From a virus, in IMG/VR virus record IMGVR_UViG_3300027302_000031, positions 1 to 23,425 of that record: a DNA stretch of 23,425 bases; one strand, given 5' to 3'. The notes under the pieces are model-generated. The model was given only the letters and a program-made list of their open reading frames with translations, made no database searches and was not told where the DNA came from. The position numbers and the translations under genes are program-made. How positions within the stretch are numbered: the first letter of the stretch is position 1; every line of letters starts with the position of its first letter. Positions 1 through 21,971 of this stretch are shown one piece after another.

Positions 1-2
1 TA

Positions 3-1673
3 ACAGGGGAATTGGGTTATAATGGTAATCCTAATCTAAAACTACCCGGAACAAAACAATCATTAACACTAGAACAAATACAAGAATTATATCGCTGTTC
101 TATTGACCCGGTTTATTGGGCTGAAAAATATATTAAGATTGTTAGTGTTGACTATGGTGTTATTCCAATTAAATTATATGATTTCCAAAAAGAAATTATT
201 GAAGCTACATTGAACAATCGACGTGTTATTGTATTGACTGGTCGTCAACAAGGTAAAACTACAGTGGCAACGATTGTATTATTGCATTTTGCTATTTTCA
301 ATAATGCTAAACGCATTGGTCTACTTGCCAATAAAGCGGACTCAGCACGTGAAATTTTAGACCGTATACAAATGGCGTATGAAAATCTTCCCCGTTGGAT
401 GCAAATAGGGGTTAAAGAATGGAACAAGGGTTCTGTTGAGTTTGCTAACGAATCTAAAATCATTGCTGCGGCTTCTTCTTCAAGTTCCATTCGTGGTAAG
501 TCTATGGCGTTCTTATACATTGACGAAACTGCATTCGTTGAAAATTGGACTGATTTTTACGCATCAACATTCCCAACTATTTCTTCTGGTAAAACAACAA
601 AAATGTTGTTCACGAGTACCCCTAATGGTTTGAATCATTTCTATGATTTCTGGAAAGGGGCGACTGATGGTACGCCAGATGAGTCTGGAAAAGTTGAACT
701 TAATGGATTTACGCCTATTTTTGCACCTTGGTATAAAATACCTAATCGTGACGATAAATGGAAGTCAGACACATTAAAAGCTTTGAACTATGACTTTGAC
801 CGTTTTCGTCAAGAATATGAAGGTGAGTTTTTAGGCTCCGCTGGTACACTTCTAAACTCAAGTACATTAGGTAGATTATTACCAGTCCCACCCATTACGT
901 CAAATGATTTTTTAAAACAATTTGAATTACCAGAAAAAGACAGAATATATTTTATGACGTGTGACGTTTCACGTGGTAAAGGGTTGGATTATTCTGCATT
1001 TAGCGTTTTTGATGTTACAGAAGTTCCGTATCGTCAAGTTTGTATTTTCCGTAATAATAAAATAACCCCAACCGATTATGCAAGTTGGATTTATCGTATT
1101 GCAAAAATGTATAACAATGCATACACTATTGTCGAAACAAACGACTTGGGAGAACAGGTCGCTGTGCTTCTACAATACGATTACGGCTACGAGAACATCC
1201 TAAGTACAGAATCTGCCGGAAGGGCCGGTAAACGTCTTTCTACAGGCTTTGGAAGGGGTGTAGAAATAGGGTTGCGCACCACCACCACGGTTAAACGTCT
1301 TGGATGTTCGGTTTTGAAGTTAATGCTTGAACAAAATACCATGTTGTTGCGTGATGAGGCGACCATCAAAGAATTGAGAACATTCTCCAAGAAGGGTGAT
1401 GGTTATTCCGCTGAACCCGGAAACCATGATGATATGGTCATGACTTTAGTGTTATTAGCATTTTTGACACAGGATAATTATTTTCATGAATTAGCTAATG
1501 GTAATATATTGCCACATATGCGTGATTTTTCGGATGAAGATATTGAAAATGATCTTATTCCATTTGGATACGTTAATAACCAAGATACTACAAATGCCCC
1601 TACATACGTTAAGTTCAAAGGCGAAAAGGGTGTGTGGGAAGAAAAAGACCCTGATGACTCATTTAGATGGTGA
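3..1673 (+). CDS. 17: Terminase large subunit, gp17-like (5' partial)
   Basis: This is the DNA-packaging motor ATPase and headful nuclease, acting at the portal vertex of the prohead. The frame is open to the left edge, and T4 gp17 carries extra N-terminal sequence before the matching GNPNLK region, so the true start probably lies upstream; a TTG at 12 is the first possible internal start. Counting from that TTG, the ATPase domain shows Walker A GRQQGKT (77-83), Walker B LYIDE (168-172) and the coupling motif TSTPNG (201-206). The RNase H-fold nuclease shows acidic residues in CDVSRG (Asp318), VETN (Glu375) and NHDD (Asp473/474). All key residues are present, so the enzyme looks functional. 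The gene is followed after 3 nt by a GNAT-like gene. Confidence 0.96.
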   Translation, partial: TGELGYNGNPNLKLPGTKQSLTLEQIQELYRCSIDPVYWAEKYIKIVSVDYGVIPIKLYDFQKEIIEATLNNRRVIVLTGRQQGKTTVATIVLLHFAIFNNAKRIGLLANKADSAREILDRIQMAYENLPRWMQIGVKEWNKGSVEFANESKIIAAASSSSSIRGKSMAFLYIDETAFVENWTDFYASTFPTISSGKTTKMLFTSTPNGLNHFYDFWKGATDGTPDESGKVELNGFTPIFAPWYKIPNRDDKWKSDTLKALNYDFDRFRQEYEGEFLGSAGTLLNSSTLGRLLPVPPITSNDFLKQFELPEKDRIYFMTCDVSRGKGLDYSAFSVFDVTEVPYRQVCIFRNNKITPTDYASWIYRIAKMYNNAYTIVETNDLGEQVAVLLQYDYGYENILSTESAGRAGKRLSTGFGRGVEIGLRTTTTVKRLGCSVLKLMLEQNTMLLRDEATIKELRTFSKKGDGYSAEPGNHDDMVMTLVLLAFLTQDNYFHELANGNILPHMRDFSDEDIENDLIPFGYVNNQDTTNAPTYVKFKGEKGVWEEKDPDDSFRW

Positions 1674-1676
1674 TAT

Positions 1677-2084
1677 ATGAAATTTACAACACATTTTGTG
1701 AAAATGTTTAATGAAGACTTTTCATACGGAAAGTCTTTAGTTGGTGATAAAGGTGAAAAAATCATAACTGATGGCGGTTATATTGATGTCCAACATCAAA
1801 CAGAATATTCCCCTAGAAAACAATCGGTTGTTGATTTTGTCGTCGATGAAAATAAACGTGGGAAAGGAATTGGGGATAAATTGTTGAAACATGCCAAACA
1901 ACGCCATTCTGATCTTGGTGGACAAGTATCTTCACTTGCCAGTTTGAAAGTATTTCATAACAATGGATTTAGAAACCCCGGTCTTGGTGACAAGGGGTTT
2001 GAAGATCACGTCAAAGAGTTTCATGAAAACGGTGGGAGTTTGTTCATGGCCATGAATGACCATGAAGGTAAACCATACGTCTAA
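1677..2084 (+). CDS. GNAT-like N-acetyltransferase, 135 aa
   Basis: This is a probable acetyl-CoA-dependent acetyltransferase of the GNAT fold; its substrate is unknown. Residues 51-70 read like beta4 plus the acetyl-CoA pyrophosphate loop (VVDFVVDENKRGKGIGDKLL, with the R-G-K-G-I-G signature at 61-66). Residues 89-98 (SLKVFHNNGF) look like GNAT motif B. The N-terminal 50 residues are not recognisable, and at 135 aa the protein is at the short end for GNATs. The ATG lies 3 nt after the terminase stop, so the gene is probably translated by coupling. It ends exactly where a convergent gene ends at 2085. A phage gene of this type could modify host or virion proteins, but nothing in the sequence tells which. 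Confidence 0.75.
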   Translation: MKFTTHFVKMFNEDFSYGKSLVGDKGEKIITDGGYIDVQHQTEYSPRKQSVVDFVVDENKRGKGIGDKLLKHAKQRHSDLGGQVSSLASLKVFHNNGFRNPGLGDKGFEDHVKEFHENGGSLFMAMNDHEGKPYV

Positions 2085-2837
2085 TCACATCATGTTGGGG
2101 TGGAAATCCCTTTTGAAGAATATTGGAAGGTCTTTTAGGATATTGGTAACAAATCCTGACGGGCCTAACAATTCTTTGGTTCCATGAAATAAACCAAATA
2201 CTTTATCCTTTACACCAATATCTTTATCAGTGAAATATAGCATTCCAGTCATTATTGATATAGCTACCCAGAAAATTATACTCGCACCAATCATGACAGC
2301 GACACGAGTTTTATAGTCGTCTGCATAATCTCTCATATAAACATCGAATGCCACATGACGATGTTCTATTTCTTCGGAAGAATGCCATTTTATCAATTCC
2401 TTGTATGGTTCATCAAACGATGACAACCATTTAGGGTTATTGAGTATTTCCATCCCCATTGATGCGGTATAGTGTTCAAGTGCAACTGTTACTGCTAAAC
2501 ATTGTTTAACTGTCAATTTCTTTTCTATTTGTTTCAACGCAACATTGATAAAATCTTCTATCTTTGTTAATGGAACATTATGAGTTTCCGCATAAAGATT
2601 CATGGTTTTATGCGCCATAGAATGCCATGCTTCTTGACCAATAAATCCAGAAATATCTTTTTCCAATTCGTCTTTAGTATTTTTACGATGCGCCCTAACT
2701 GCTCGTACAAAGAAATCTTCGCCGGGCGGAAAGGTAGAGGATAATGCGTTAAAAAAGTGGGTAATAAGTTTGCTATCTTTATAGTAATACTTTTCTGTAT
2801 TTGAAAAATCAAACTTGTTTTTGCGAACTGGTATCAT
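2085..2837 (-). CDS. Ferritin-like metal-dependent hydrolase family (PF10118 type), membrane-anchored
   Basis: The protein matches by eye the bacterial 'predicted metal-dependent hydrolase' family PF10118/COG3687, a helical, ferritin-like, probably metal-binding fold of unknown reaction. Diagnostic stretches are PPGEDFFVRAVRAHR (37-51), GFIGQEAWHSMAH (64-76), VALEHYTA (118-125) and WHSSEEIEHRHVAFDVY (151-167). They supply a set of Glu/His pairs (E40, E69, H72, H76, E121, H122, E155/156, E158, H159) suited to a di-metal site. Residues 179-201 form one hydrophobic segment, so a membrane anchor is likely. The gene runs against the surrounding late genes, has SD AGGAG before the ATG, and lies behind a consensus sigma70 promoter. 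It looks like a moron or auxiliary gene. The family call is fairly firm; the reaction is unknown. Confidence 0.85.
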   Translation of the reverse strand: MIPVRKNKFDFSNTEKYYYKDSKLITHFFNALSSTFPPGEDFFVRAVRAHRKNTKDELEKDISGFIGQEAWHSMAHKTMNLYAETHNVPLTKIEDFINVALKQIEKKLTVKQCLAVTVALEHYTASMGMEILNNPKWLSSFDEPYKELIKWHSSEEIEHRHVAFDVYMRDYADDYKTRVAVMIGASIIFWVAISIMTGMLYFTDKDIGVKDKVFGLFHGTKELLGPSGFVTNILKDLPIFFKRDFHPNMM

Positions 2838-2852
2838 GATCTACTCCTACAT

Positions 2853-2893
2853 GTCAACTGTGACATTATACAATGTATTTATACAGTTGTCAA
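2853..2893 (-). promoter_or_regulatory. Perfect sigma70-type promoter with operator-like inverted repeat
   Basis: Reading the minus strand, -35 TTGACA (2893-2888) is followed by exactly 17 nt and then -10 TATAAT (2870-2865), both perfect consensus. An inverted repeat, 8 of 9 positions matching, flanks it: plus-strand GTCAACTGT at 2853-2861 sits over the expected start site, and ACAGTTGTC at 2883-2891 overlaps the -35. The spacer also contains TATAAATA (2883-2876), the T4 late box. The promoter begins directly after the stop codon of the upstream minus-strand gene and drives the gene starting at 2837. Confidence 0.82.
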
Positions 2894-3097
2894 TCATTTA
2901 AGACATGTATCGTAGGTCATGATCCATTTTAAAACACTAGGTATTGGTGTTTGTTTATGAAAAAATATTTTTATTTGATCTTCGAGTATATAGAGATGTT
3001 CAACAGCATCTTGGTTGGAGAGATAATACTGTTCGTATATTAGTTCTTGAAGTATTATGGTTTTATATGATTCGATGTCACAATAAAAGCGATTCAT
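2894..3097 (-). CDS. Small hypothetical protein, 67 aa
   Basis: I do not recognise this protein. It has a good SD (GAGGTG, 7 nt before the ATG), and its stop abuts the -35 box of the promoter for the downstream ferritin-like gene, which suggests a real gene in a two-gene reverse cassette. It is predicted mostly helical, rich in Tyr, Ile and Leu, with three Cys and no clear transmembrane segment. Its 5' side faces the late promoter of the tail tube gene, so the two genes diverge. No function can be inferred. Confidence 0.6.
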   Translation of the reverse strand: MNRFYCDIESYKTIILQELIYEQYYLSNQDAVEHLYILEDQIKIFFHKQTPIPSVLKWIMTYDTCLK

Positions 3098-3110
3098 AAT
3101 TTCACCTCAA

Positions 3111-3118
3111 TATAAATA
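3111..3118 (+). promoter_or_regulatory. T4-type late promoter box TATAAATA (tail tube)
   Basis: An exact TATAAATA lies 47 nt before the tail tube ATG in the divergent intergenic region. This is the T4 late promoter -10 consensus, read by a gp55-type sigma factor in the T4 family. A similar SD (AGAGGATAA) follows before the gene. Confidence 0.75.
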
Positions 3119-3165
3119 AAGTTAAATAGTATGTAACAGATATTTAATTTAAGAGGATAACAAAA

Positions 3166-3783
3166 ATGCCATTTAATGCTAATGAATTTAGAAAGCAATT
3201 GAAAAATGGTGGTGCCCGTCCAAACCAATTCCAAATTGAGTTGTTAAGTGCACCTGCATCTTTCACCACAGCAGCAGGTTCAGGCAATGCAATGTCTTCC
3301 TTTACATATATGACTAACGCAGCAGACCTACCCGGTTCAGTTATTGGTACAATTCCTGTTCCTTACTTCGGTCGTTTCATTAACGTTGCTGGTGATCGTA
3401 TGTTTGAAGATTGGACATGTGCAATTTATTGTGACGAAGATTTTATAACCCGTAATGCCTTTGAAGCATGGAATAACTCCATGTCTTTCTTAAACTTTGA
3501 TACATTCAAAGAACATGGTACGTCATCCGAAACTATTGATAAGTATGTTTGTGACATAAAAGTGTCTCATTATACAAAAACTGGTAAGGTTGATAAAATA
3601 TATGTTCTTCATAATGCATTCCCATATGTTGTATCTCCTGTCCAATTATCATGGCAGGCTAATGATCAGGTGATGATGTTCGAAGTAACTTGGAAGTATG
3701 ATTATTTCACTACTAACTTCAATGCGTATAACAAAAATGAAATTTCGTTGACTGATGTTGATGCATCGGCAAGACGTGAGTAA
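3166..3783 (+). CDS. 19: Tail tube protein, gp19-like
   Basis: This is the major subunit of the inner tail tube of the contractile tail. The match to the T4 gp19 family rests on the N-terminal pattern of a short polar start followed by RPNQFQIEL, the PVPYFGRFINVAGDR segment, and the typical EDWTCAIYCDEDFITRNAFEAWNN block, where tube proteins describe their inter-ring contacts. At 205 aa it is longer than T4 gp19 (163 aa) but normal for the cyanophage-like branch. It has its own late promoter box, SD AGAGGA and an ATG start. A second tube-like protein is encoded at 21443-21931. Confidence 0.9.
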   Translation: MPFNANEFRKQLKNGGARPNQFQIELLSAPASFTTAAGSGNAMSSFTYMTNAADLPGSVIGTIPVPYFGRFINVAGDRMFEDWTCAIYCDEDFITRNAFEAWNNSMSFLNFDTFKEHGTSSETIDKYVCDIKVSHYTKTGKVDKIYVLHNAFPYVVSPVQLSWQANDQVMMFEVTWKYDYFTTNFNAYNKNEISLTDVDASARRE

Positions 3784-3795
3784 TGGAGAATTATA

Positions 3796-4656
3796 ATGGA
3801 TTTAACTAATGCAATTTTATCATCAGTATACCCCCACCAGCAAGGAAATGCCACTGATGCTTCAAATACCTTGATGGGTAATATGGTTGACAATCAATTG
3901 AATGGTCATTTGGTGCGTATTAGTCCAAATGCATTCATCTATTTGTCTAATGATACTGATGATGATGGAAATACATGCCCATCATGTCATATTGTTGTGT
4001 CTACTGATTCTGACCATTATGTTGGTGGTTTATCTACTGATATACCAGTTAATCAAAGTGACGATAATATAACGCCTAATCCAGAACCAGTTTCGGATAA
4101 TGGTTGTGATGGCGATACTTCCGAACAAGATGCAAACTCTGTTGTGTTGCCAGTTGGTGAAATTGTACCATTTGTTGAAAATGGTCAAGATGACACAAAC
4201 AACGATACTGACAATGATTTAGACATTGCTGATTTGGTATCAGATGCACAACCAGCACCTACAGTTGATGATAATATTGATGTTCAACCTGCACCAGATG
4301 CTGACATAGCCGCTGCAATTGATACACCGATTGATACAACAATGGCACCTGCGGTTGATGTTGTTAATGATCAAAATGACATGATTAAAACGGAACTTGA
4401 AGAAAAATGTGATGACGATGAATCTCACAAAGATTCTAAATTAGATGAATCAGCATATATCGAATACCCACACCAAGTTGAAAATTTAGATGAAGCACTT
4501 CAACAAATTTCAACCGCATTAACAAATCGTTATGGTGGGTCAATCATACTTCATGAGGGTCACTGTTTAACACATGTTAGAAAAGATGGTTTAGTTGATA
4601 AGGTACAAGCTGTACAAGGTAAGTACAAAATCAGAACACATAAGCTAAAAGTTTAA
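3796..4656 (+). CDS. Acidic low-complexity hypothetical protein, 286 aa
   Basis: I do not recognise this gene. It lies 12 nt behind the tail tube gene and ends in a strong terminator. The middle (about residues 50-220) is extremely rich in Asp, Pro, Ala, Thr and Val with repeats of the type DxxPAPxxD, and is predicted disordered and strongly acidic. The last ~65 residues look folded: a helix (ENLDEALQQISTALTNRYGG) followed by a beta-rich, basic tail ending in KYKIRTHKLKV. The place between tail tube and portal is where T4-like phages often carry small variable genes. A prohead core or virion role is possible because of the acidic character, but is not shown. Confidence 0.8.
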   Translation: MDLTNAILSSVYPHQQGNATDASNTLMGNMVDNQLNGHLVRISPNAFIYLSNDTDDDGNTCPSCHIVVSTDSDHYVGGLSTDIPVNQSDDNITPNPEPVSDNGCDGDTSEQDANSVVLPVGEIVPFVENGQDDTNNDTDNDLDIADLVSDAQPAPTVDDNIDVQPAPDADIAAAIDTPIDTTMAPAVDVVNDQNDMIKTELEEKCDDDESHKDSKLDESAYIEYPHQVENLDEALQQISTALTNRYGGSIILHEGHCLTHVRKDGLVDKVQAVQGKYKIRTHKLKV

Positions 4657-4671
4657 TCAGACCATTGATTC

Positions 4672-4696
4672 AAAAAAGCCGCCCTGCGGCTTTTTT
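4672..4696 (+). terminator. Rho-independent terminator after the acidic gene
   Basis: An 11-bp stem AAAAAAGCCGC / GCGGCTTTTTT with loop CCT ends in a T run. It separates the tail tube transcript from the portal gene. The flanking A and T runs also allow it to work on the opposite strand. Confidence 0.9.
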
Positions 4697-4699
4697 GCT

Positions 4700-4708
4700 A
4701 TATAAAAT
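4700..4708 (+). promoter_or_regulatory. Possible late promoter before portal (TATAAAAT variant)
   Basis: ATATAAAAT just after the terminator and 27 nt before the portal ATG is one substitution from the TATAAATA late box. It is well placed for a transcript starting at the portal gene, but the match is imperfect in an AT-rich gap. Confidence 0.4.
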
Positions 4709-4734
4709 TAGAAACAATATATCAGGATTAAAAT

Positions 4735-6375
4735 ATGCAATTTAAAATTTTTGGCTTTAGCTTTGGCTCTGCCGATAAAAACTCTGCAAGTGGTGTTACG
4801 CAATACATTGCGCCAAGTCTAAACGATCCTTCTGTAGACCTTTATTCTGGTGGTTTCATGACGCCTATGGCGACATCATTACAAATAACATCAATGGTTA
4901 AAACAGAAAACGATGCGATTGCTCAATATAGAGATATAGCAAGACAGGCAGAAGTTGATTTAGCAGTAGAAGAAATAATTTGTGAAATGGTTGTGATGGA
5001 ACATCAAAAACCGGCTGTTACTTTGAATATGGATGCCATTGATATTTCGTTGGAGTTGAAAGAAGTAATTAATAAAGAGTTTAAAACAATTCTTGGGTTA
5101 TTAGATTTCAACACTGACGCTCATACAGTTGCTAAACGCTGGTATGTTGATGGCCGTATTAATTATTTGGTTTCTATTGATGAAAACAATCCTCAGTACG
5201 GTATTCAACAATTACAATATGTTGAACCAACGAAAATAAAGAAAATACGTGAAATAAATCGTGATATACAAAATGGCCATCCAATTGTCAGGAATATAAA
5301 AGAGTTTTATATCTTTAATGAAAACGGAATAGATCAAAGTGCATCGACGGCGGGTGGCGCAACTTCCACTACTATTACATTAACACCGGAATCAGTTGTT
5401 CAATGTAATTCAGGGATTTATGACGCTGATCGTGGTTTCATGGTATCCGCTTTGGAAACTGCTATACGTACTACTAATTCCATGCGTATGTTAGAAGAAA
5501 GCGGGATTATCTATATGCTTACACGTGCGCCCGAACGTAGAATATTCTATATCGACGTTGGTAATCTTCCTAAAGCAAAAATTGACCAATATATCAAAGA
5601 AATCGCTGACAAGTACCGTACAAAAATTCTTTATGACCCCGTTACCGGCAAAGTGAAAAACGAAAAACGATTCATGTCAATGAATGAAGACTTTTTCATA
5701 CCCCGTCAAGGTGGTAGCCGTGGCACAGAAATTGATACATTGCCCGGTGGTGACTCTTTCGACAATACTAGTCAATTGGATTATTTCAAAACTCAATTGT
5801 GGGATGCATTAAAAGTTCCAGCGTCCCGTTTTCAACAAGGTTCCTTGTATACACATGGTTCTGAAATTACTCGTGATGAATTACGCTTCTTTAATTATAT
5901 TCAACGTTTGCGTATTCAATTCTCAAAGCTTTTTGCTGAATTGTTGAAACGACAGTTAGTATTAAAAGGAATAATTGGATTAGATGATTGGGAAGAATTC
6001 CGTGACAATTTGTATTTTGATTTTACCGTTGACAACTATTTCAAAGAATCTGTAGAAAATGAAATTTTACAAGGTCGTTTGAATATGATTGGGGCAGCAG
6101 ATGCTTTTGTTGGAAAATATTATGGCCCTGATTATGTTTATACCAATGTCTTACACGTAACAGAAGAAGTTGCAGCGGAATTGAAAAAACAAGCAGCACA
6201 ATATCGTCAAGAAAATATTCAGAATAGAATTAATGAACAACAATTGACTGCACAGTTACAAGCAGAATCCGATTCATCATTAACTGATATATTGGGGAAA
6301 CAAGGAATAGATGCGTCAAATTACATTGCTGTTGCACAACAAATGCAACAAGAGCAAGATCAAATGCAACAATAA
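4735..6375 (+). CDS. 20: Portal vertex protein, gp20-like
   Basis: This is the dodecameric portal at the unique head vertex: it nucleates prohead assembly, docks the terminase and later joins the tail. Family-typical stretches include YRDIARQAEVDLAVEEI near residue 63, DGRINYLVSID, QLQYVEPTKIKKIREI, the highly conserved PERRIFYIDVGNLPKAKIDQY, the region DPVTGKVKNEKRFMSMNEDF, and the GGSRGTEIDTLPGG segment followed by a helix-rich region LDYFKTQLWDALKVPASRF. The C-terminal ~50 residues are Gln-rich (QQMQQEQDQMQQ) and probably a coiled or flexible tail. Length 546 aa is close to T4 gp20 (524). It is the first gene after the terminator and upstream of the core and protease genes, as in T4. Confidence 0.97.
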   Translation: MQFKIFGFSFGSADKNSASGVTQYIAPSLNDPSVDLYSGGFMTPMATSLQITSMVKTENDAIAQYRDIARQAEVDLAVEEIICEMVVMEHQKPAVTLNMDAIDISLELKEVINKEFKTILGLLDFNTDAHTVAKRWYVDGRINYLVSIDENNPQYGIQQLQYVEPTKIKKIREINRDIQNGHPIVRNIKEFYIFNENGIDQSASTAGGATSTTITLTPESVVQCNSGIYDADRGFMVSALETAIRTTNSMRMLEESGIIYMLTRAPERRIFYIDVGNLPKAKIDQYIKEIADKYRTKILYDPVTGKVKNEKRFMSMNEDFFIPRQGGSRGTEIDTLPGGDSFDNTSQLDYFKTQLWDALKVPASRFQQGSLYTHGSEITRDELRFFNYIQRLRIQFSKLFAELLKRQLVLKGIIGLDDWEEFRDNLYFDFTVDNYFKESVENEILQGRLNMIGAADAFVGKYYGPDYVYTNVLHVTEEVAAELKKQAAQYRQENIQNRINEQQLTAQLQAESDSSLTDILGKQGIDASNYIAVAQQMQQEQDQMQQ

Positions 6376-6399
6376 ATAATATAAACTTTTGGGGTAATT

Positions 6400-6675
6400 A
6401 TGTTTAATTCAGCAATTTATGGCATGCCAATGCCAATGCCAGTAAGCACTGATGTTCAAACGGTGTTTGGACGTATTGGCCCCAATATATATGCACAAAC
6501 AGGTGATTACACCGCAGCTATGGTAGGGGCCGACCCTGTTGGTGAGGCTTCGGCGGTAATGGTCACTCACATTAATGGTTCAAACCCCCATGTGCAATAT
6601 GCGTTGAAAACTGATTTGGAAGCATATTTTGATGCAGCAATTGCATATTTTGACAATAATATCAATTTGCCATAA
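6400..6675 (+). CDS. Mini protein with tail-fibre-type motif, 91 aa
   Basis: Residues 18-37 resemble the short beta motif common in phage tail fibres (typically VFGRTG..V.AQTGDY): here QTVFGRIGPNIYAQTGDY. It is followed by VGADPVGEA and HINGSNPHVQYA, also typical fibre-shaft wording (ADPxGxA, HxxxxxPHxQY). The remainder is a short helix. The N-terminus has a Met-Pro run (MPMPMPV). A normal fibre protein is many times longer, so this is a stand-alone mini version, perhaps a small trimeric virion decoration or whisker. It sits 24 nt after the portal and before the core genes, which is unusual for a fibre-like gene. The motif call is good; the role is a guess. Confidence 0.75.
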   Translation: MFNSAIYGMPMPMPVSTDVQTVFGRIGPNIYAQTGDYTAAMVGADPVGEASAVMVTHINGSNPHVQYALKTDLEAYFDAAIAYFDNNINLP

Positions 6676-6686
6676 AAATGAAATGT

Positions 6687-6694
6687 TATAAATA
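6687..6694 (+). promoter_or_regulatory. T4-type late promoter box TATAAATA
   Basis: An exact TATAAATA lies 24 nt before the ATG at 6719, in the gap after the mini fibre gene. A strong SD (TTAAGGAGT) follows. It would start a late transcript for the core-protein and protease genes. Confidence 0.7.
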
Positions 6695-6718
6695 TTCTTA
6701 TGTTTTAAGGAGTTATAA

Positions 6719-7171
6719 ATGAAAATCCCTAATAAAGATTTTGTTAAATTGATCATGAATGAAAAGCTAATTGATAAATTGTCTTCTGGTAATTTATTAG
6801 AAATGCGTATGGCCCCTGATCAATCGAGTTACCCATTGACACGTAGACAAGTTGAAAAAATGCTTGCTCAATATGAAAGACGTGAAGATGAAGAAAACTG
6901 GAACGATGATCCAGAATACCGTAGCCAAGATGGATGGTTAAAGGCGAAATGGTTTGCACCTGAATTGAACTCGGATTTCAATTCTCAGGACGTAGATACT
7001 AGTGGAAGCCAAAGACCTGCTAAATTGATGCCGTATGATTATTACTACACTAATTTTAAACAAAGCAATGACCAATTTGATTTGCCATATAATAACGTCA
7101 ACGACGATGATGATTTGGAAGATGCCAATGAAAATCAGGATTGGTCTGGCGAACATAATCCTTGGCAATAA
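6719..7171 (+). CDS. Hypothetical core-region protein, 150 aa
   Basis: I do not recognise the family. The protein has a helical, basic N-terminus (residues 1-30, ending SGNLLEMRM), a charged middle (TRRQVEKMLAQYERREDEENWNDD) and a strongly acidic, Asn/Asp-rich C-terminus. L26-L27-E28 and M13-N14-E15 resemble sites cut by T4-type prohead protease (L/I-x-E). Its place directly before the acidic and basic core proteins, with SD AAGGAG and its own late box, suggests a prohead core or head-associated component, but this is context only. Confidence 0.75.
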   Translation: MKIPNKDFVKLIMNEKLIDKLSSGNLLEMRMAPDQSSYPLTRRQVEKMLAQYERREDEENWNDDPEYRSQDGWLKAKWFAPELNSDFNSQDVDTSGSQRPAKLMPYDYYYTNFKQSNDQFDLPYNNVNDDDDLEDANENQDWSGEHNPWQ

Positions 7172-7183
7172 GAGGAAAAATAA

Positions 7184-7585
7184 ATGGATTACAATATAAC
7201 AGACGACGATTTGGATGATGTTTTTGATATCGTTTCACCTTCAAATGATAGTGATGTTCCTGTTGATGACATGGATATTCCTGATGTTGATACCAGTGAT
7301 ATAGAAAATATCAATGCCGATGATATTGAAGATGACGACGATGACTTTGAATATACGCCAGCGCCAGATGATATAACAGATGATGAAATGTCAGAAGACG
7401 GTATTTCTGAAAATGATTTGGTTGTTGTTAATAAAGATGGCTCATACGTAGTAATGTCACCTGATATTGCAGAAGTTCTTATGTCAAACCCATCATTTAT
7501 CGACAAGATGGATGCTGGTTTTGATGATATAGACGATTTTACTAATACAGTTCAACCAATTTTACAGGGAGTTAGTCATGACTAA
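7184..7585 (+). CDS. Acidic prohead-core-type protein (gp67 position)
   Basis: The first ~85 residues are almost entirely Asp, Ile, Glu, Val and Pro (a DDDLDD-type composition), followed by a short folded-looking segment with KDGSYVVMSPDIAEVL. In T4 the small acidic core protein gp67 is encoded between portal (20) and gp68; this gene has the same place and acidic character, though it is longer (133 versus 80 aa) and I see no clear alignment. It overlaps the following basic core gene by 8 nt, so the two are probably made in fixed proportion. I infer a role in the prohead inner core; it could also be an unrelated acidic structural protein. Confidence 0.7.
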   Translation: MDYNITDDDLDDVFDIVSPSNDSDVPVDDMDIPDVDTSDIENINADDIEDDDDDFEYTPAPDDITDDEMSEDGISENDLVVVNKDGSYVVMSPDIAEVLMSNPSFIDKMDAGFDDIDDFTNTVQPILQGVSHD

Positions 7586-7988
7586 TATTGTTAAGACTAT
7601 GTTAAAAGAATCACTTGACCGCTTGGCATTAGAAAAAACAGCTTCGATGTTGGGTGAAATGACAACTGATGAAATTATTACCGAATCTCTTGATGAGAAC
7701 ATGACTCATCGTCCTCATCCATTTGAAAGACGTATGGGGCGTATTGCTATTGTCAATCGTGTACGTAACGGAAGCTTGCAGATGAACAAGCGTGTTGATG
7801 TTATGGGGAAGGGATATAAATTAATGCCCGGTGGGCAAGTTATTAAGATGCAACCACGTGAGATTATAAATCGTAAACGTGCTGCTAAACGTGCTGCAAG
7901 AAAGCGTCAAATGAAAATGTCTATGATCATACGCAAACGCATGCGTTCTATACAACGTAGAAATAGTGAATTGGGGTATTTTAAATGA
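7578..7988 (+). CDS. 68: Basic prohead core protein, gp68-like
   Basis: The C-terminal half resembles the gp68 family of T4-like phages: RMGRIAIVNRVRNGSLQMNKRVDV, then GYKLMPGGQVIKM, then a long Arg/Lys helix (NRKRAAKRAARKRQMKMSMIIRKR in part) ending near RRNSELGYFK. Family members share this RIVNRVR...GGxxxRM...RRKxAxRKAxRKRxxK layout from memory. The N-terminus (MTNIVKTMLKESLDRL) has L9-K10-E11, a plausible prohead-protease site. It acts in the scaffolding core that shapes the prohead. It overlaps the acidic gene before it by 8 nt and the protease after it by 4 nt (ATGA). Confidence 0.8.
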   Translation: MTNIVKTMLKESLDRLALEKTASMLGEMTTDEIITESLDENMTHRPHPFERRMGRIAIVNRVRNGSLQMNKRVDVMGKGYKLMPGGQVIKMQPREIINRKRAAKRAARKRQMKMSMIIRKRMRSIQRRNSELGYFK

Positions 7989-8659
7989 TTAGTAAAAGTA
8001 ACATATTGCCGTTTCATGATCAACTTTTCGAAGATACTGAAATATTGAGCGAGACAGTTAACGGTAAAAAGTATTGGTACATAAAAGGTATCTTCATGCA
8101 GGCGAACATTGTTAATAGAAACAATCGCATGTACCCAAAAGATATTCTTGATGCTGCGACAAACACTTATATTACACAGTTTGTTAATAAGAGACGTGCC
8201 GTAGGCGAATTAACACATCCAGACACCACGAAAATCAATCCTGATCGTATTTCTCACTTAACAGAAGAAATAAAGATTGATGGTAATTATTATATCGGTA
8301 AGGCAAAAGTGCTTGATACCCCTTGTGGGAAAATCGCACAAGCTTTGTTAGAAGGCGGCGTACAATTGGCTGTTTCTTCTCGTGCTGACGGTTCTGTACG
8401 TGAACGTGGTGATGGTGTAAATCAAGTTAATCCCGGTCTTATTTTACGTGCTATTGACATTGTATATGACCCATCTGCACCAGAAGCATTTGTTGATGGT
8501 TTAATGGAAGGAACTATTGCATGGGACACATCTGACCCTGATGTTGCAATAGCCGAAGAAATCCGCCGTTCAATAAAAAATGCATCTTCGAGAAATCTTC
8601 AAGAGGCTAAATTGGAAGCATGGAATAAACTAATGAAATCATGTATTAATGGCTCATAA
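7985..8659 (+). CDS. 21: Prohead core protease, gp21-like
   Basis: This serine protease of the herpesvirus-assemblin-like U9/S78 group cleaves core, scaffold and capsid proteins at (L/I)-x-E sites during prohead maturation. Typical family stretches are the N-terminal KKYWYIKGIFMQANIVNRNNR pattern, then GELTHPDT with the catalytic His78, and LAVSSRADGS with the catalytic Ser at 131/132. LRAIDIVYDPSAPEAFV (about 153-169) supplies the conserved Asp region. Length 224 aa matches T4 gp21 (212). The gene overlaps the gp68-like gene by 4 nt. Confidence 0.96.
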   Translation: MISKSNILPFHDQLFEDTEILSETVNGKKYWYIKGIFMQANIVNRNNRMYPKDILDAATNTYITQFVNKRRAVGELTHPDTTKINPDRISHLTEEIKIDGNYYIGKAKVLDTPCGKIAQALLEGGVQLAVSSRADGSVRERGDGVNQVNPGLILRAIDIVYDPSAPEAFVDGLMEGTIAWDTSDPDVAIAEEIRRSIKNASSRNLQEAKLEAWNKLMKSCINGS

Positions 8660-8704
8660 AATTTTTGAACCATTAAATAAAAAGAACTACAGAATGTTGA
8701 ACTA

Positions 8705-8712
8705 TATAAATA
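8705..8712 (+). promoter_or_regulatory. T4-type late promoter box TATAAATA (scaffold)
   Basis: An exact TATAAATA lies 45 nt before the scaffold ATG at 8758, in the gap after the protease gene. It is the nearest exact late box upstream of the capsid gene, so scaffold and capsid may share this transcript. Confidence 0.75.
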
Positions 8713-8757
8713 GATAAAACAACATTTTAAAAATATTCACAATTATTGGAGTGGAAA

Positions 8758-9843
8758 ATGAAAACCATTAAAGAAATTTTAACAACTATGTCAGAGGCAG
8801 CATACCGTCCAGCAGATAACACTGATGTCGGTCAAGTTGCACCTGTCACCTTGGAACCTCAAGATTTCCAAGCTGCCCCACCTGCACCAGTAGAACCTTA
8901 TCCTGCAAACGAAACAGGTAATGTTGTGTCTGGTGATGGTGGTTTGGACGAAAAGGATTTTATCAATGATCCTAATCTTCCTGCGTCTACAGGTGGTGAT
9001 ATCACTAGTGTTGATGACATTCAAGATCGTATCAACGGTGTTGTTTCCGAAGATTCCGTTAACGGTATTTTGGACAAGGTTATCGGCAAGTTGATGGCAG
9101 AATCAATTTATGAAGTACAATTGAAGTCTGAATTGGGTTCTATGTTTGAATCGCAAGGCTTGAATGAAGATTTCACTAGCAAGGCAACTGACATTTTCGA
9201 AGCTGCTGTTACTTCCGCAGGTAAGAAGCATTTGTTGGCTATTTCCGAAGCTGCTGAAACTTACATTGCTCAGGAATTGGAAAACTTCCAACAAGCTCAA
9301 CAAGCTTCTATCAATGAGTATTTGTCTGTCGTTGTTAACGAATGGGCAGAAGAAAACAAGTTGGCACTTGAACTTGGCGCACGTACCCGTATCGCTGAAT
9401 CGTTCATGGATGGCTTGAAAGGTTTGCTTGAATCTCATTATGTTGAATTGCCAAAGGATAAGGTTGACCTTTATGAAGCTGCTGTTAAGAAAGGCGACGA
9501 AATTCTTTCTCAATTGGATGAAGAAAAGGCAAAATCTGCTGCTCTTGCAGAAGAAGTTAATACATATAAGAAGAACGCAATTCTTGAATCTGCATTGAAA
9601 AATGTTAGTGCTGTTAAAGCAGAAAAGATTCGTGGGTTGATGGAAAGCGTTGCATTCTCTGATGCAGACTCGTTCCGTGCTCGTGTTGATATTGCAGTTT
9701 CTAGTTTGGCCCAAGCTGCTGCACCTGCTAAGCCTATTTCCGAAGACACTGTTTCTCAGCCAGCTAAGCCTTTGACTGAAAGTGTTGGTAACGAAATCGA
9801 AGAAATCGCTAAGAAAATTAGCCGTATTAACCGTACATCGTAA
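8758..9843 (+). CDS. 22: Prohead scaffold/core protein, gp22-like
   Basis: This is the main scaffolding protein that fills the prohead and is degraded by the protease before packaging. It is 361 aa, acidic, Ala/Glu/Lys-rich and helical from about residue 80 on, with a Pro/Ala-rich linker before it and a short basic end (EIAKKISRINRT), as in T4 gp22. The ATG at 8758 is chosen over an upstream TTG at 8746 because TTGGAGTGG lies at SD distance from it. Many L/I-x-E motifs (IFEA, ISEA, LYEA, ILES, ISED) are spread through the protein, fitting multiple cuts by the gp21-type protease. The gene lies directly between protease and major capsid protein. Confidence 0.92.
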   Translation: MKTIKEILTTMSEAAYRPADNTDVGQVAPVTLEPQDFQAAPPAPVEPYPANETGNVVSGDGGLDEKDFINDPNLPASTGGDITSVDDIQDRINGVVSEDSVNGILDKVIGKLMAESIYEVQLKSELGSMFESQGLNEDFTSKATDIFEAAVTSAGKKHLLAISEAAETYIAQELENFQQAQQASINEYLSVVVNEWAEENKLALELGARTRIAESFMDGLKGLLESHYVELPKDKVDLYEAAVKKGDEILSQLDEEKAKSAALAEEVNTYKKNAILESALKNVSAVKAEKIRGLMESVAFSDADSFRARVDIAVSSLAQAAAPAKPISEDTVSQPAKPLTESVGNEIEEIAKKISRINRTS

Positions 9844-10034
9844 TTAATACATGGATTTTAGTGAATTAATTTTCACTAAAATCACCGAAAATGATAAAAA
9901 ATTAAAAAATAATTTTTTTACAGTAAATAAAAGTATAACAACTTATTGTTTACAAAACGAAAAATTTTCAAAACTTTTTTTGTCAGTAAATAAATAAGAT
10001 TAAACAAATTTTTAAAATTATAGAGGAAATCGAA
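9844..10034 (+). other. AT-rich leader between scaffold and capsid genes, with 12-bp hairpin
   Basis: This 191-nt gap holds no gene. Just after the scaffold stop is a perfect 12-bp inverted repeat (GATTTTAGTGAA at 9854-9865, TTCACTAAAATC at 9872-9883, loop TTAATT) with no T run directly behind it. A weaker AT-only hairpin and T run follow at about 9902-9920. The phrase CAGTAAATAAA occurs twice, each behind a T run (9921-9931 and 9984-9994). No exact TATAAATA is present. It may be an mRNA stability or processing element that sets capsid against scaffold amounts. Confidence 0.6.
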
Positions 10035-11336
10035 ATGACTGATTTAGTTCAAAAGTGGCAAGCGGTTCTTGAACACAGTGACTATCCTAAGATTAAGGAT
10101 GCTCACCGTCGTAAGACTACAGCTACCTTGTTGGAAAACCAACTAAAAAATTCGACTGCTGTTGATGCATTCGGTGGTACTTTGAATGAAGATGCTGCTG
10201 CAAGCAACGTAACTGCAAATGTCGCAAAATATGACCCAATCTTGATTAATTTGGTTCGTCGTTCTATGCCAAACTTGATCGCTTATGATGTTTGTGGTGT
10301 TCAGCCTTTGACTGGCCCATCTGGTTTGGTTTTCGCTTACAAGCCAAAATACATCGCTGGTGCAACTCGTACTGATGCTTTCTATCGTGAAGCTAATACT
10401 GCATTCTCTGGTACTGGTTCTCATGGTGGTACTGATCCATCTGTTCTTAACCTTGGCGTTCCCGGAACATATACTTCTGGTACTGGTATGGCAACTGCTA
10501 CTGGTGAAGCTTTGGGTACAGATACAGGTGATGCATTCGGTGAAATGGGCTTCGACATTGATTCGTTCACTGTTCAGACAAAGACCCGTGCATTGAAGGC
10601 AACTTATACTGTTGAATTGGCACAAGATTTGAAGCAGATTCATGGTCTTGACGCTGAAACTGAATTGGCAAACATTTTGTCCGCACAATTGTTGGCTGAT
10701 TTGAACCGTGAAGTTATTCGTACAATTTATGTTACTGCTAAGGTTGGTGCACAAAACACTGATTTGTCAACACCCGGTATTTTCGACCTTGACACTGACT
10801 CTAACGGTCGTTGGTCAAAAGAAAAATTCCAAGGTATGTTGTTCCAGATCGACCGTGATGCTAACGCAATCGCTAAAGAAACTCGTAACGGTAAAGGTAA
10901 TTTCATTATCTGTTCGTCTGACGTAGCTTCTGCTCTTGCAATGTCCGGTATGTTGGATTATCAACCTGCATTGTCTACTGACTTGCAAATTGATGATACT
11001 GGTAATACATTCGCTGGTGTGTTGAACGGTAAGTATCGTGTTTATATCGACCCATACGCAGTTGGTAACTTCTACGTTGTCGGTTACAAGGGTGCTAACC
11101 AATATGACGCAGGTATCTACTACTGCCCATACATCCCATTGCAACTTTACAAAGCTGTTAGTGAAGATAGCTTCCAACCTAAGATTGGTTTTAAAACCCG
11201 TTACGGTTTGGCAAGCAACCCATTTGCTAATATCGACGTGAACGGAAACGCTGTTTCCAACGGTGCATTGACTGCTAACGCAAACGTCTACTACCGCCGT
11301 GTTCGTATCGAAAACTTGGCAGGTGCTGCATCCTAA
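10035..11336 (+). CDS. 23: Major capsid protein, gp23-like
   Basis: This HK97-fold major head subunit assembles around the scaffold. The stretch NVAKYDPILINLVRRSMPNLIAYDVCGVQPLTGPSGLVFA follows the cyanophage-type gp23 pattern almost word for word (shown in part; residues about 63-103). Other family signs are QTKTRALKATYTVELAQDLK, FIICSSDVASALAMSGML and the C-terminal GFKTRYGLASNPFA. A probable propeptide cut by the prohead protease lies at L50-N51-E52 before D53, where cyanophage capsids have a similar L-T-E/A site. Length 433 aa is within the family range (T4 521). Codons here are richer in C- and G-ending forms than in neighbouring genes, as expected for a very highly expressed gene. A UUCG-loop terminator follows. 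Confidence 0.98.
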   Translation: MTDLVQKWQAVLEHSDYPKIKDAHRRKTTATLLENQLKNSTAVDAFGGTLNEDAAASNVTANVAKYDPILINLVRRSMPNLIAYDVCGVQPLTGPSGLVFAYKPKYIAGATRTDAFYREANTAFSGTGSHGGTDPSVLNLGVPGTYTSGTGMATATGEALGTDTGDAFGEMGFDIDSFTVQTKTRALKATYTVELAQDLKQIHGLDAETELANILSAQLLADLNREVIRTIYVTAKVGAQNTDLSTPGIFDLDTDSNGRWSKEKFQGMLFQIDRDANAIAKETRNGKGNFIICSSDVASALAMSGMLDYQPALSTDLQIDDTGNTFAGVLNGKYRVYIDPYAVGNFYVVGYKGANQYDAGIYYCPYIPLQLYKAVSEDSFQPKIGFKTRYGLASNPFANIDVNGNAVSNGALTANANVYYRRVRIENLAGAAS

Positions 11337-11359
11337 TAGCAATATTAGTGTGATTTAAT

Positions 11360-11387
11360 AAAAAAGAGTCTTCGGACTCTTTTTTTA
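11360..11387 (+). terminator. Rho-independent terminator after capsid gene (UUCG loop)
   Basis: The stem AAAAAGAGTC / GACTCTTTTT is closed by a TTCG tetraloop (11371-11374) and followed by a T run. A C(UUCG)G loop is unusually stable. It ends the capsid message 24 nt after the stop. Confidence 0.93.
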
Positions 11388-11408
11388 TTCCTGTAAAAAA
11401 AGAAGTAA

Positions 11409-11416
11409 TATAAATA
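11409..11416 (+). promoter_or_regulatory. T4-type late promoter box TATAAATA
   Basis: An exact TATAAATA lies right after the capsid terminator and 26 nt before the ATG at 11443. It would start the transcript of the three post-capsid genes up to the terminator at 13803. Confidence 0.75.
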
Positions 11417-11442
11417 CAGTAAACCAATTGAAGGTAAGTAAT

Positions 11443-12573
11443 ATGGAAAACGATGTAACATTATCAAAGTCAGATGAAAAAAAGAGCCGTTCATATTATG
11501 GGGTTAGACCTGATTTCACCGATAACGATTCTACCGGGGATCAAGTATATTCCGGTGGGGAAGATTCCGTTAATGATTTAGATTTAAATGATGGAAAAAA
11601 TCGTTATGTTGTAGTTGCACCAGATCAAAACTCACGTGATATAGAGTCAATCATGAAGAGAAAATACCCAAAATCTTCTTTTTCACGTATTAACAATGAT
11701 GAGTTCAAAATGATTTCTTCGAATGGAAATGAAATAGCAATTGTCCATTCAAATAAACAAGGTAAACATGTCATATTGGTAGAACGTCCATCAAATCGTT
11801 CTAAAGCTAAAGAAAATGTAGAACAACCAGTGTCAGAGGGTAAAAGTTTATCGGAAGCAAAATTTGGAAACCGATATAACAGCCATTACATGCCTCATTT
11901 GTGGCATGGTGAAAAGGAACGTGAAAATGACGAAGTAATGCGCCGCCCATCTAAATCATACCCTGCGTATACACCTCCTAAAAAAGATCATTATTTGGTT
12001 GTGAAGTCGCATACACCACTTGACACCCCAGCACATGAAGGTATCAAGGTTGGTGAACATACTTATGCAGTTCCAGTAACAAAAGATGACCATGATAAGG
12101 CAAATGCTTTATTCCCTTCTTATCATTCATCACATGACGATTCAGAAGTTATTTCAGATGAAGATTACAGAAGTCGTGAATTGCCAAAATATAGAAAGAG
12201 TGTCATGAGTAAAGTATTACCGGGCGTGGATGCTGAGTTTGTTGGTGCAAGAAAAACAGCACACCAAGAGAAGAATGACCATTATGCATTATTACATGTT
12301 CCTGCTGGTGCGGAAGAAGATGTTAAAAAATTACCAAATGTTAAAGTTTCTCCGAAGGGAAGATACTATACAATGATACCAAAAAGTGTACATGAAATGG
12401 ATACAACCAATAAAAATATATCCGTTGGTGATATGGTCGGATACCATGACATAAACAATGTTAACAACCCTAAGCGCCATATGTGGGCACCAAATTATAA
12501 TATGGATCACGCTATAAAAGTTGAAAAAACATTATCCCCAGAAGATATTATTAAAATGAAAAAGGAAGGTTAA
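11443..12573 (+). CDS. Hypothetical post-capsid protein, 376 aa
   Basis: I do not recognise this protein. The ATG at 11443 is chosen because GAAGGTAAG lies at SD distance before it; a TTG at 11428 is in frame but would overlap that SD. The protein is hydrophilic. Residues ~55-115 look like a small alpha/beta domain (NRYVVVAPD ... SRINNDEFKM ... KHVILVERP), then a charged linker with L136-S137-E138-A139, which fits the prohead-protease rule, then a His/Lys/Tyr-rich region and a C-terminal part (DHYALLHVPAGAEEDVKKLP ... GRYYTMIPK). It has its own late box and sits after the capsid gene, so a head or internal protein is possible. No function is assigned. Confidence 0.82.
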   Translation: MENDVTLSKSDEKKSRSYYGVRPDFTDNDSTGDQVYSGGEDSVNDLDLNDGKNRYVVVAPDQNSRDIESIMKRKYPKSSFSRINNDEFKMISSNGNEIAIVHSNKQGKHVILVERPSNRSKAKENVEQPVSEGKSLSEAKFGNRYNSHYMPHLWHGEKERENDEVMRRPSKSYPAYTPPKKDHYLVVKSHTPLDTPAHEGIKVGEHTYAVPVTKDDHDKANALFPSYHSSHDDSEVISDEDYRSRELPKYRKSVMSKVLPGVDAEFVGARKTAHQEKNDHYALLHVPAGAEEDVKKLPNVKVSPKGRYYTMIPKSVHEMDTTNKNISVGDMVGYHDINNVNNPKRHMWAPNYNMDHAIKVEKTLSPEDIIKMKKEG

Positions 12574-21442: not shown

Positions 21443-21931
21443 TCAAACGTCATAAAACTCTATTTCGTAACGTTGATATTTCAATATCAACATGCTGTAT
21501 ATTTCCATAGTTTCTGATGTTTGTTCACTAAAATCAAGTTCACCCAAAGAGACAGGAACCACATCCATAAATGTAACCTTCATCATTGGATTATTATGGC
21601 TGGTGTATATTGTCATTGCTGCGTCAACATATGTGAATTCTGCACTGATAGGATGTTCTGACGGATTGGCTATACCCCACATCCACTTAAATACCTCATA
21701 CCAATTCTGCATGTTTTCACTAACAGCAAACTCCAAATATAAGTCACCAAAATATAATTTGTCACCATAAATCGGTTTATCAAATAAAGGCGAAGATTGT
21801 TGGGCGACCCCAAGATTTATTCCGGGTAAAGGATAACGTTGTAATGTAAAACTCAAATGTGGAAATGCTGAAAACTCTAGGGTTGCACGATTGCTAGTAA
21901 GTTTGTTTAAATTTTGGTATAAATCTGTCAT
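21443..21931 (-). CDS. Tail-tube-like structural protein
   Basis: The protein resembles small virion proteins of T4-like phages related to tail tube or tube-initiator subunits (gp19/gp54 type): LQRYPLPGINLGVAQQSSPL, then a G-D-K-L-x-F-G-D-L segment with a following strand, SENMQNWYEVFKWMWGIANP, a TIYTSHNNPMMKVTFMDVVP strand pair and PVSLGELDF. This order (P-G-x-N-L-G, P-x-x-G-D-K-L, N-W-x-E-x-F-x-W, N-N-P, P-V-S-L-G) recurs in cyanophage tail proteins, from memory. The ATG at 21931 is chosen because AGGAG lies before it, although the frame stays open to 22003. It is 162 aa, like T4 gp19 (163). Confidence 0.78.
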   Translation of the reverse strand: MTDLYQNLNKLTSNRATLEFSAFPHLSFTLQRYPLPGINLGVAQQSSPLFDKPIYGDKLYFGDLYLEFAVSENMQNWYEVFKWMWGIANPSEHPISAEFTYVDAAMTIYTSHNNPMMKVTFMDVVPVSLGELDFSEQTSETMEIYSMLILKYQRYEIEFYDV

Positions 21932-21971
21932 AAACACTCCTATTGTAAATAGACAAAAATGAGAAGGTAAA

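Follow-up and report, generated by a model that had tools for sequence, protein, structure and literature searches.

A PF10118 protein of predicted AurF/CylC-like diiron type stands in the tail-sheath position of a T4-like phage

The DNA analysed here (the window) is a virus record of 23,425 bases from a T4-like phage. Between its terminase and tail-tube genes, in place of the tail sheath found there in relatives, it carries a minus-strand gene of Pfam family PF10118 (Metal_hydrol), whose members go by the name of predicted metal-dependent hydrolases. We propose, at a rough probability of 55% for the explanation as a whole, that the product is an O2-activating diiron enzyme with an auxiliary role, which would oxidise an acyl-type substrate and be transcribed both early and late in infection. 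The features on which the argument draws are listed below by position in the window.

12 to 1673, plus strand: terminase large subunit (T4 gp17-like, by Pfam/PHROGs), left border of the slot
1677 to 2084, plus strand: GNAT acetyltransferase ORF, convergent to the PF10118 gene, the stop codons of the two directly abutting
2085 to 2837, minus strand: PF10118 protein of 250 aa, a predicted ferritin-like enzyme of diiron-oxygenase type; putative site residues E40, Q68-E69-x-x-H72, E121 and H152-x-x-E155-E156-x-x-H159
2844 to 2849, minus strand: probable ribosome-binding site TAGGAG by sequence, 6 nt before the ATG of the PF10118 gene
2852 to 2861, no strand assigned: arm 1 of an imperfect inverted repeat (9/10, 21 nt between arms) that flanks the promoter
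2865 to 2893, minus strand: sigma70-type promoter TTGACA-17-TATAAT from the promoter scan, both boxes perfect
2876 to 2883, minus strand: T4-type late promoter box TATAAATA, nested in the sigma70-type spacer, 46 nt from the start codon of the PF10118 gene
2883 to 2892, no strand assigned: arm 2 of the inverted repeat, partner of 2852 to 2861
2894 to 3097, minus strand: ORF of 67 aa, its ATG preceded by GAGGTG and its stop codon ending directly before the -35 box
3166 to 3783, plus strand: tail tube (T4 gp19-like), right border of the slot, with a late box at 3111 to 3118 on the plus strand

The gene is real. The ORF at 2085–2837 starts with ATG and matches the PF10118 HMM over profile positions 2–244 of 247 (E 9.9e-69; 232.2 bits against a cut-off of 33.2), so that the original prediction of a minus-strand gene of this family, for which an HMM search had been proposed as a check, was borne out with 199 bits to spare. 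The match is full-length, although the protein is shorter at both ends than eight other aligned members. Two further IMG/VR contigs with other record numbers (57,932 and 37,690 bases) come from the same phage, being 99.9 and 100% identical to the window, respectively, over the shared stretch, and both carry the gene in the same place with 100% protein identity. The window differs from the larger contig at 20 positions, none of which falls within 2085–3165; an exact-pattern search to extend the phage contig returned no new contig. As three contigs hold the same gene in the same place, an assembly accident is hardly likely. A chimera or host contamination would agree with the family being common in bacteria and with the bacterial look of the 5 inspected among 11 matches in a public phage collection, but it is refuted by the three contigs unless all of them share one chimera, and the composition of the gene equals that of the phage (GC 0.352 against 0.354 for the window); we give it a negligible chance. 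The same agreement in GC indicates that the gene is probably not a very recent import.

An AlphaFold2 model of the window protein (pLDDT 96.5, pTM 0.93) is ferritin-like, as the original prediction had anticipated in setting structure prediction as a check. In VIA-align, the closest fold was CmlI (Z 14.6; 232 residues aligned, rmsd 4.8), followed by AurF (Z 13.7), R2 (13.6), R2lox (13.2) and the MMO hydroxylase (12.7), and all 50 matches listed were of the ferritin-like type, nearly all of them di-metal enzymes. A second model, of an ACP-linked phage relative, gave the same fold neighbours (CmlI Z 13.3). Two points count against our explanation here: Z values of 13–14 are close to those that helical bundles can score through the arrangement of their helices alone, and Foldseek against the PDB was weak (best E 0.05). 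A fold search of BFVD gave nothing below E 0.001, the best matches being ribonucleotide reductase small chains at E of at least 0.16 among unrelated proteins. Sequence searches of the PDB, with the single protein and with a profile, returned no credible relative of the window protein; NCBIfam held no credible match for it or for two phage relatives, and PADLOC had none for it at E up to 1.

For the family as a whole, a redundancy-filtered alignment of 82 rows was used (the window protein, 64 bacterial and 17 other viral sequences). Fourteen columns are invariant in 82/82 rows, the query included: E40, Q68, E69, H72, H76, E121, H122, W151, H152, E155, E156, E158, H159 and P247. Nine of these (E40, Q68, E69, H72, E121, H152, E155, E156 and H159) follow the pattern of the AurF/CylC diiron site in order, and the spacing also matches within two motifs. 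Ligands were assigned from sequence positions and the helix boundaries of the model, in which E40, E69/H72, E121 and H152/E156/H159 lie on four separate helices. The Glu/His pairs of a putative di-metal site, which had been noticed in the window protein, are thus a property of every row. We consider a fold and a site of diiron type almost certain for the window protein.

The diiron site of AurF and the CylC halogenases is described in passages of PMC12101540 as QExxH, HxxDExxH and two further residues, AurF E196 being named; according to the same passages, CylC halogenases act on acyl-ACP. With the CylC/NocO dimetal halogenases, PF10118 shares the QExxH motif (Q68-E69-A-W-H72, with Q, E and H in 82/82 rows), the three His positions and a ferritin-like fold, and in other phages it has an ACP as its partner, just as CylC has CylB in that excerpt. 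It differs in having HxxEExxH (E155 in 82/82 rows) where CylC, compared here by its motif description, has HxxDExxH, and no ACP partner was found in the 57.9-kb fragment of this phage. The N-oxygenases AurF and CmlI (PF11583) are the closest solved folds to the model, and all seven ligand positions of the 3-His/4-carboxylate site are present by motif; in contrast, the window protein has no PF11583 match at E up to 1, and the second-sphere D135 of AurF corresponds to Gln, as in CylC. The passages available from PMC8406957 name no Pfam family for CylC.

Profile comparisons point the same way from a distance. In a scan of 200 genomes, four bacterial PF10118 proteins, matched by coordinates, hit the AurF HMM PF11583 below its cut-off (E 2e-5 to 6e-4), and hhalign of PF10118 against PF11583 placed the motif columns in register (E 0.0013), with a probability of only 18%. 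The AurF ligands themselves we take to be numbered E101, E136, H223 and E227. When the acyl-ACP desaturases (PF03405) were sought for profile comparison, one strong member was found. We take PF10118 to be a distant relative of the AurF/CylC type, for which the name 'hydrolase' is unsupported.

The family name does speak for a true metal-dependent hydrolase (a peptidase, esterase or thioesterase), for instance one that releases acyl groups from carriers. So would PMC8960859, where a PF10118 protein is filed among proteases, being treated as a candidate lanthipeptide protease and linked by correlation to a lanthipeptide precursor; this counts against our explanation. Such a hydrolase is nevertheless improbable, as the neighbours of the predicted fold are ferritin-like di-metal oxygenases and oxidases, and E + ExxH + E + HxxEExxH, invariant in 82/82 rows, is the O2-activating diiron pattern of the PMC12101540 passages. 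The protein is very likely an oxygenase or oxidase. 'Predicted metal-dependent hydrolase' is probably a misnomer for PF10118, and the modelled fold suggests that the name misleads.

The protein had also been described as membrane-anchored by one transmembrane helix. Residues ~179–197 are indeed hydrophobic (19-residue Kyte–Doolittle mean 2.29). A 19-residue stretch that exceeds 1.6, however, occurs in only 34 of the 82 rows, so a hydrophobic helix is no constant feature of PF10118. Structural alignments to the soluble CmlI and AurF span residues 1–246 with this helix included, and a transmembrane helix therefore overstates the case, the membrane anchor being only partly supported.

A search of IMG/VR gave 43 further contigs with PF10118 (34 from a first search, the phage's own two contigs excluded, and nine new from a second), mostly of a lineage separate from the window gene. 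Two of them, L176 and L177, were kept in this count; their matches lie within 54 bases of the contig end and look like provirus host flanks. Four of the 43 measure 259–345 kb. A terminase was found in 3 of 19 PF10118 records tested, all three above 320 kb; the 259-kb record was negative and most of the others are short fragments. Some viral neighbours match virion, tail and tail-collar families. Near the PF10118 gene of L173 (331 kb, with a terminase in the record) lie bacterial-type transporter and racemase genes. As a separate observation, an ORF close to the PF10118 gene of the 259-kb contig L190 looks by eye like an aminolevulinate-synthase-type enzyme and is next to a 2OG-Fe(II) oxygenase (PF13759), the coordinates being 5551–6744 on the minus strand and 10750–11217 on the plus strand.

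In 14 of the 43 contigs, jumbo-sized ones included, the next ORF downstream of PF10118 encodes an ACP (L174, L175, L178, L179, L180, L182, L184, L186–L189, L192, L194 and L206; about 10 distinct sequences). The two genes frequently overlap. Four of the 43 contigs stop so near the PF10118 gene that an ACP could not be seen. All nine viral ACPs tested matched PF00550; eight of the scores exceed the cut-off of 20.8 bits and the ninth, 20.6 bits, falls just short of it. No ACP was found beside PF10118 at any of 80 bacterial loci (up to 4 kb on each side, 16 of them shorter). The control was a profile made from the nine viral ACPs: it recovered ACPs in 5/5 bacterial genomes, with E as low as 5e-22, and judging by coordinates no such ACP is a neighbour of PF10118. 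An ACP directly downstream in 14/43 viral contigs and at 0/80 bacterial loci suggests carrier-bound acyl substrates in those phages. Since no ACP was found in the 57.9 kb of this phage, which is a fragment, the argument reaches the window gene only through relatives at ~24–36% identity, which weighs against our explanation.

The best bacterial relatives of the window protein are from Acinetobacter, Pseudomonas, Alcanivorax and Marinobacter, genera with many degraders of oil and lipids. Paralogues are numerous, with 10 and 8 in two Acinetobacter genomes and 12 in one Alcanivorax. Within the family of A. venetianus (Moraxellaceae), PF10118 occurs in 30 of 41 genomes, at up to 16 copies per genome, against 29 of 200 genomes of the phylum. 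One copy, on a plasmid, has a cytochrome P450, a ferredoxin and PaaI thioesterases in its neighbourhood. It counts against our explanation that the bacterial neighbours show no dominant pathway, among the 25 families listed of 103, and no adjacent ACP. In the Minicystis rosea genome (G007, C1 ~2377152–2388118), a PF10118 match in a 918-aa frame and an ACP-domain match in a 431-aa frame are ~10 kb apart; the region is possibly a biosynthetic cluster.

In the public phage collection INPHARED, PF10118 turned up in 11 records: 10 go under the name 'Acinetobacter phage MD-2021a' and the remaining one under 'Pseudomonas phage sp.'. Five were inspected and none of the 11 was counted as a phage gene. 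Four inspected MD-2021a loci proved to be bacterial chromosome, with EF-Tu, trp, pyrG and gltD neighbours, and the Pseudomonas phage sp. copy appears to lie beyond attR. The MD-2021a records (CAKLQH), being bacterial chromosome filed as phage in the four inspected, would mislead annotation by similarity.

Among the open-licence PMC papers listed by our searches, we found no PF10118 member with tested activity, which also counts against our explanation, and no description of PF10118 in phages, of a PF10118–ACP pair or of the AurF/CylC signature in the family; the passages of PMC11924767 that mention a phage ACP do not name PF10118. As far as these searches reach, the family is known and uncharacterised within that literature, and its phage occurrence, ACP pairing and AurF/CylC signature are not described there.

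That the window enzyme would act on an acyl or lipid substrate is argued by analogy: copies of the other phage lineage are paired with an ACP, CylC offers a parallel, the family is distributed among lipid degraders, and the plasmid neighbourhood contains P450, ferredoxin and thioesterases. We put it at even odds. The enzyme might instead be a diiron protein for a non-lipid substrate, serving nucleotide, cofactor or defence purposes through amine N-oxygenation like AurF and CmlI, peptide or protein oxidation, or radical storage. This reading, which draws on the N-oxygenases and ribonucleotide reductase R2 as best structural matches and on the three-His signature, is unlikely, if still to be reckoned with: the ACP pairing and the abundance of PF10118 in lipid- and alkane-degrading genera point to acyl chains, and no PADLOC match speaks for defence.

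The origin of the window gene was approached with a maximum-likelihood tree of 82 proteins (82 of 113 were kept by the redundancy filter, L176 was then dropped and the window row added; L177 is also out). The window protein belongs to a set of 13 rows (99/98), together with 11 Acinetobacter rows and one Bacteroidetes row, whereas the 17 other phage rows lie on one side of a branch, apart from it, and the 18 phage rows together need two changes. The branch of the window protein is long (1.17), and its exact place and sister in the tree are therefore unsure. Two separate captures of PF10118 by phages would be the simplest reading of this tree, and a Moraxellaceae host for the phage may reasonably be inferred from it.

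With respect to the slot itself, the phage was assigned as T4-like since Pfam/PHROGs recognise its terminase, portal, tail tube and UvsY; ORFs of baseplate, prohead-protease, capsid and topoisomerase-like type were picked out by visual inspection of the translations. The Pfam/PHROGs assignments confirm the location first reported, between terminase/GNAT and tail tube. The slot contains the GNAT ORF (1677–2084), the PF10118 gene and the 67-aa minus-strand ORF (2894–3097). Two of its features are additions to the original prediction: what relatives carry at this position, and the 67-aa ORF abutting the -35 box. Of 69 terminase relatives fetched, 50 span both borders, and all 50 have a tail sheath between them. 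The sheath profile was built from the own sheaths of 14 relatives; at least 36 of the 50 were unused for it, some being near-copies of used ones. The same profile found no tail sheath in the 57.9-kb contig or in the window, even at E up to 10. A search of other phages for the same insertion, suggested at the outset, gave 0/69: tblastn at E 1e-4 returned no match to PF10118 or GNAT in the flanking DNA of the relatives, many of which are short fragments. The PF10118 gene is carried by a T4-like phage at the position of the sheath, and since the sheath itself is missing there, this is not a simple insertion.

Seen from the phage side, the stretch 1674–3165 of the window lacks a T4-like tail-sheath gene at its usual place. 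The baseplate-like ORFs suggest a contractile tail, so that the sheath gene must lie elsewhere or be replaced. Near the end of the window, the minus-strand ORF 21443–22003, amid non-structural genes, looks by eye like a second tail-tube-like protein; it had no NCBIfam match. The 67-aa ORF had no match in NCBIfam or PADLOC and no relatives in the loci fetched (best E 0.63); it is possibly the first gene of a two-gene reverse cassette with the PF10118 gene.

The sigma70-type site TTGACA-17-TATAAT at 2893–2865 on the minus strand was correctly reported as perfect in both boxes. It is the sole 12/12 site in window positions 1–12000, and two such sites were seen in the 58-kb composite against 0.2 expected. 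Looser promoter-like sites stood at chance level (51 found in window positions 1–12000 against 47.4 expected), and sites of at least 11/12 in the composite numbered 7 against 4.8 expected, an excess that is weak on its own. All seven are on the minus strand, where most non-structural ORFs of the phage also lie, and they may thus be ordinary early promoters of the phage.

It had been held that the neighbouring late genes use TATAAATA boxes instead, and that the gene would be expressed early or outside the lytic late programme. The contrast fails, as a perfect TATAAATA lies inside the spacer of the same promoter (2883–2876, minus strand). This T4-type late box is, by sequence, as good as those of the late genes, and expression outside the late programme is accordingly not supported by the sequence. 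The octamer occurs six times in 58 kb, against 10.5 expected from composition, and every occurrence is 19–55 nt upstream of a listed ORF start, where ~3% of strand positions qualify; two of these ORF starts are TTG, and the true starts may be a few codons on. At 46 nt, the box of the PF10118 gene is no worse placed than the boxes of late genes such as the tail tube. With all six boxes just upstream of ORFs, nested early and late promoters are likely and offer the simplest reading, and both promoters of the PF10118 gene are probably used. The inverted repeat around them may be an operator, or chance.

These results bear on the description of the gene as a moron. Like phage morons and auxiliary metabolic genes, it is an accessory gene of a bacterial family, in a variable place, with a promoter sequence of its own; it differs from them in having a phage late box, in replacing a structural gene and in being without a terminator-like site. 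Zero bases lie between the GNAT and PF10118 stop codons, so no terminator separates the two genes, and a consensus scan found no terminator-like site within the PF10118 gene or at its end. A classical moron would be inserted, independently expressed, of benefit to the host or active in excluding other phages, and silent in the late lytic programme. The reverse orientation, the strong sigma70-type promoter sequence and the failure to find the gene in the relatives examined are what such a moron would show; the perfect late box within the promoter, the abutting stops, the sheath missing from the slot and the phage-like GC are not, and we consider this reading quite unlikely. Of the moron claim, the accessory character and the own promoter sequence stand, while the lack of a terminator-like site, the phage-like composition and the late box speak against it.

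We therefore return to the auxiliary diiron enzyme as the preferred explanation. A T4-like phage would have acquired the gene from an Acinetobacter-like lineage of PF10118 paralogues. Its product, a ferritin-like non-haem diiron (or Mn/Fe) enzyme with the AurF/CylC-type signature, would activate O2 and, most likely as an auxiliary metabolic enzyme, would oxidise (hydroxylate, desaturate or otherwise functionalise) an acyl-type substrate of the host during infection. The substrate would probably be a fatty acyl chain, carrier-bound or membrane-bound, so that host lipids would be changed, presumably to the benefit of the phage. Early transcription by host RNA polymerase would start from TTGACA-17-TATAAT and late transcription would continue from the nested TATAAATA.

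A wider reading, which we put forward tentatively and as rather doubtful, is that PF10118 is an unrecognised AurF/CylC-like diiron class that was captured by phages on two or more occasions, serving to oxidise or halogenate acyl chains. In one lineage, found on jumbo-sized and smaller contigs, some members carry an ACP of their own, near tail and appendage genes; the other, in this T4-like phage, would act on host acyl carriers or lipids. If this is true, phages would remodel the fatty acids of their hosts, or parts of the virion would receive an acyl-derived modification. PF10118 is widespread, no member with tested activity having been found in open-licence PMC papers, and the chemistry that its name implies is probably the wrong one. 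An experimental handle comes from the phage copies, in that the neighbouring carrier protein shows what to load the substrate on. If our explanation is right, the family would represent an enzyme class not seen before that acts on lipids and depends on O2, and phages could alter host membranes by a new route.
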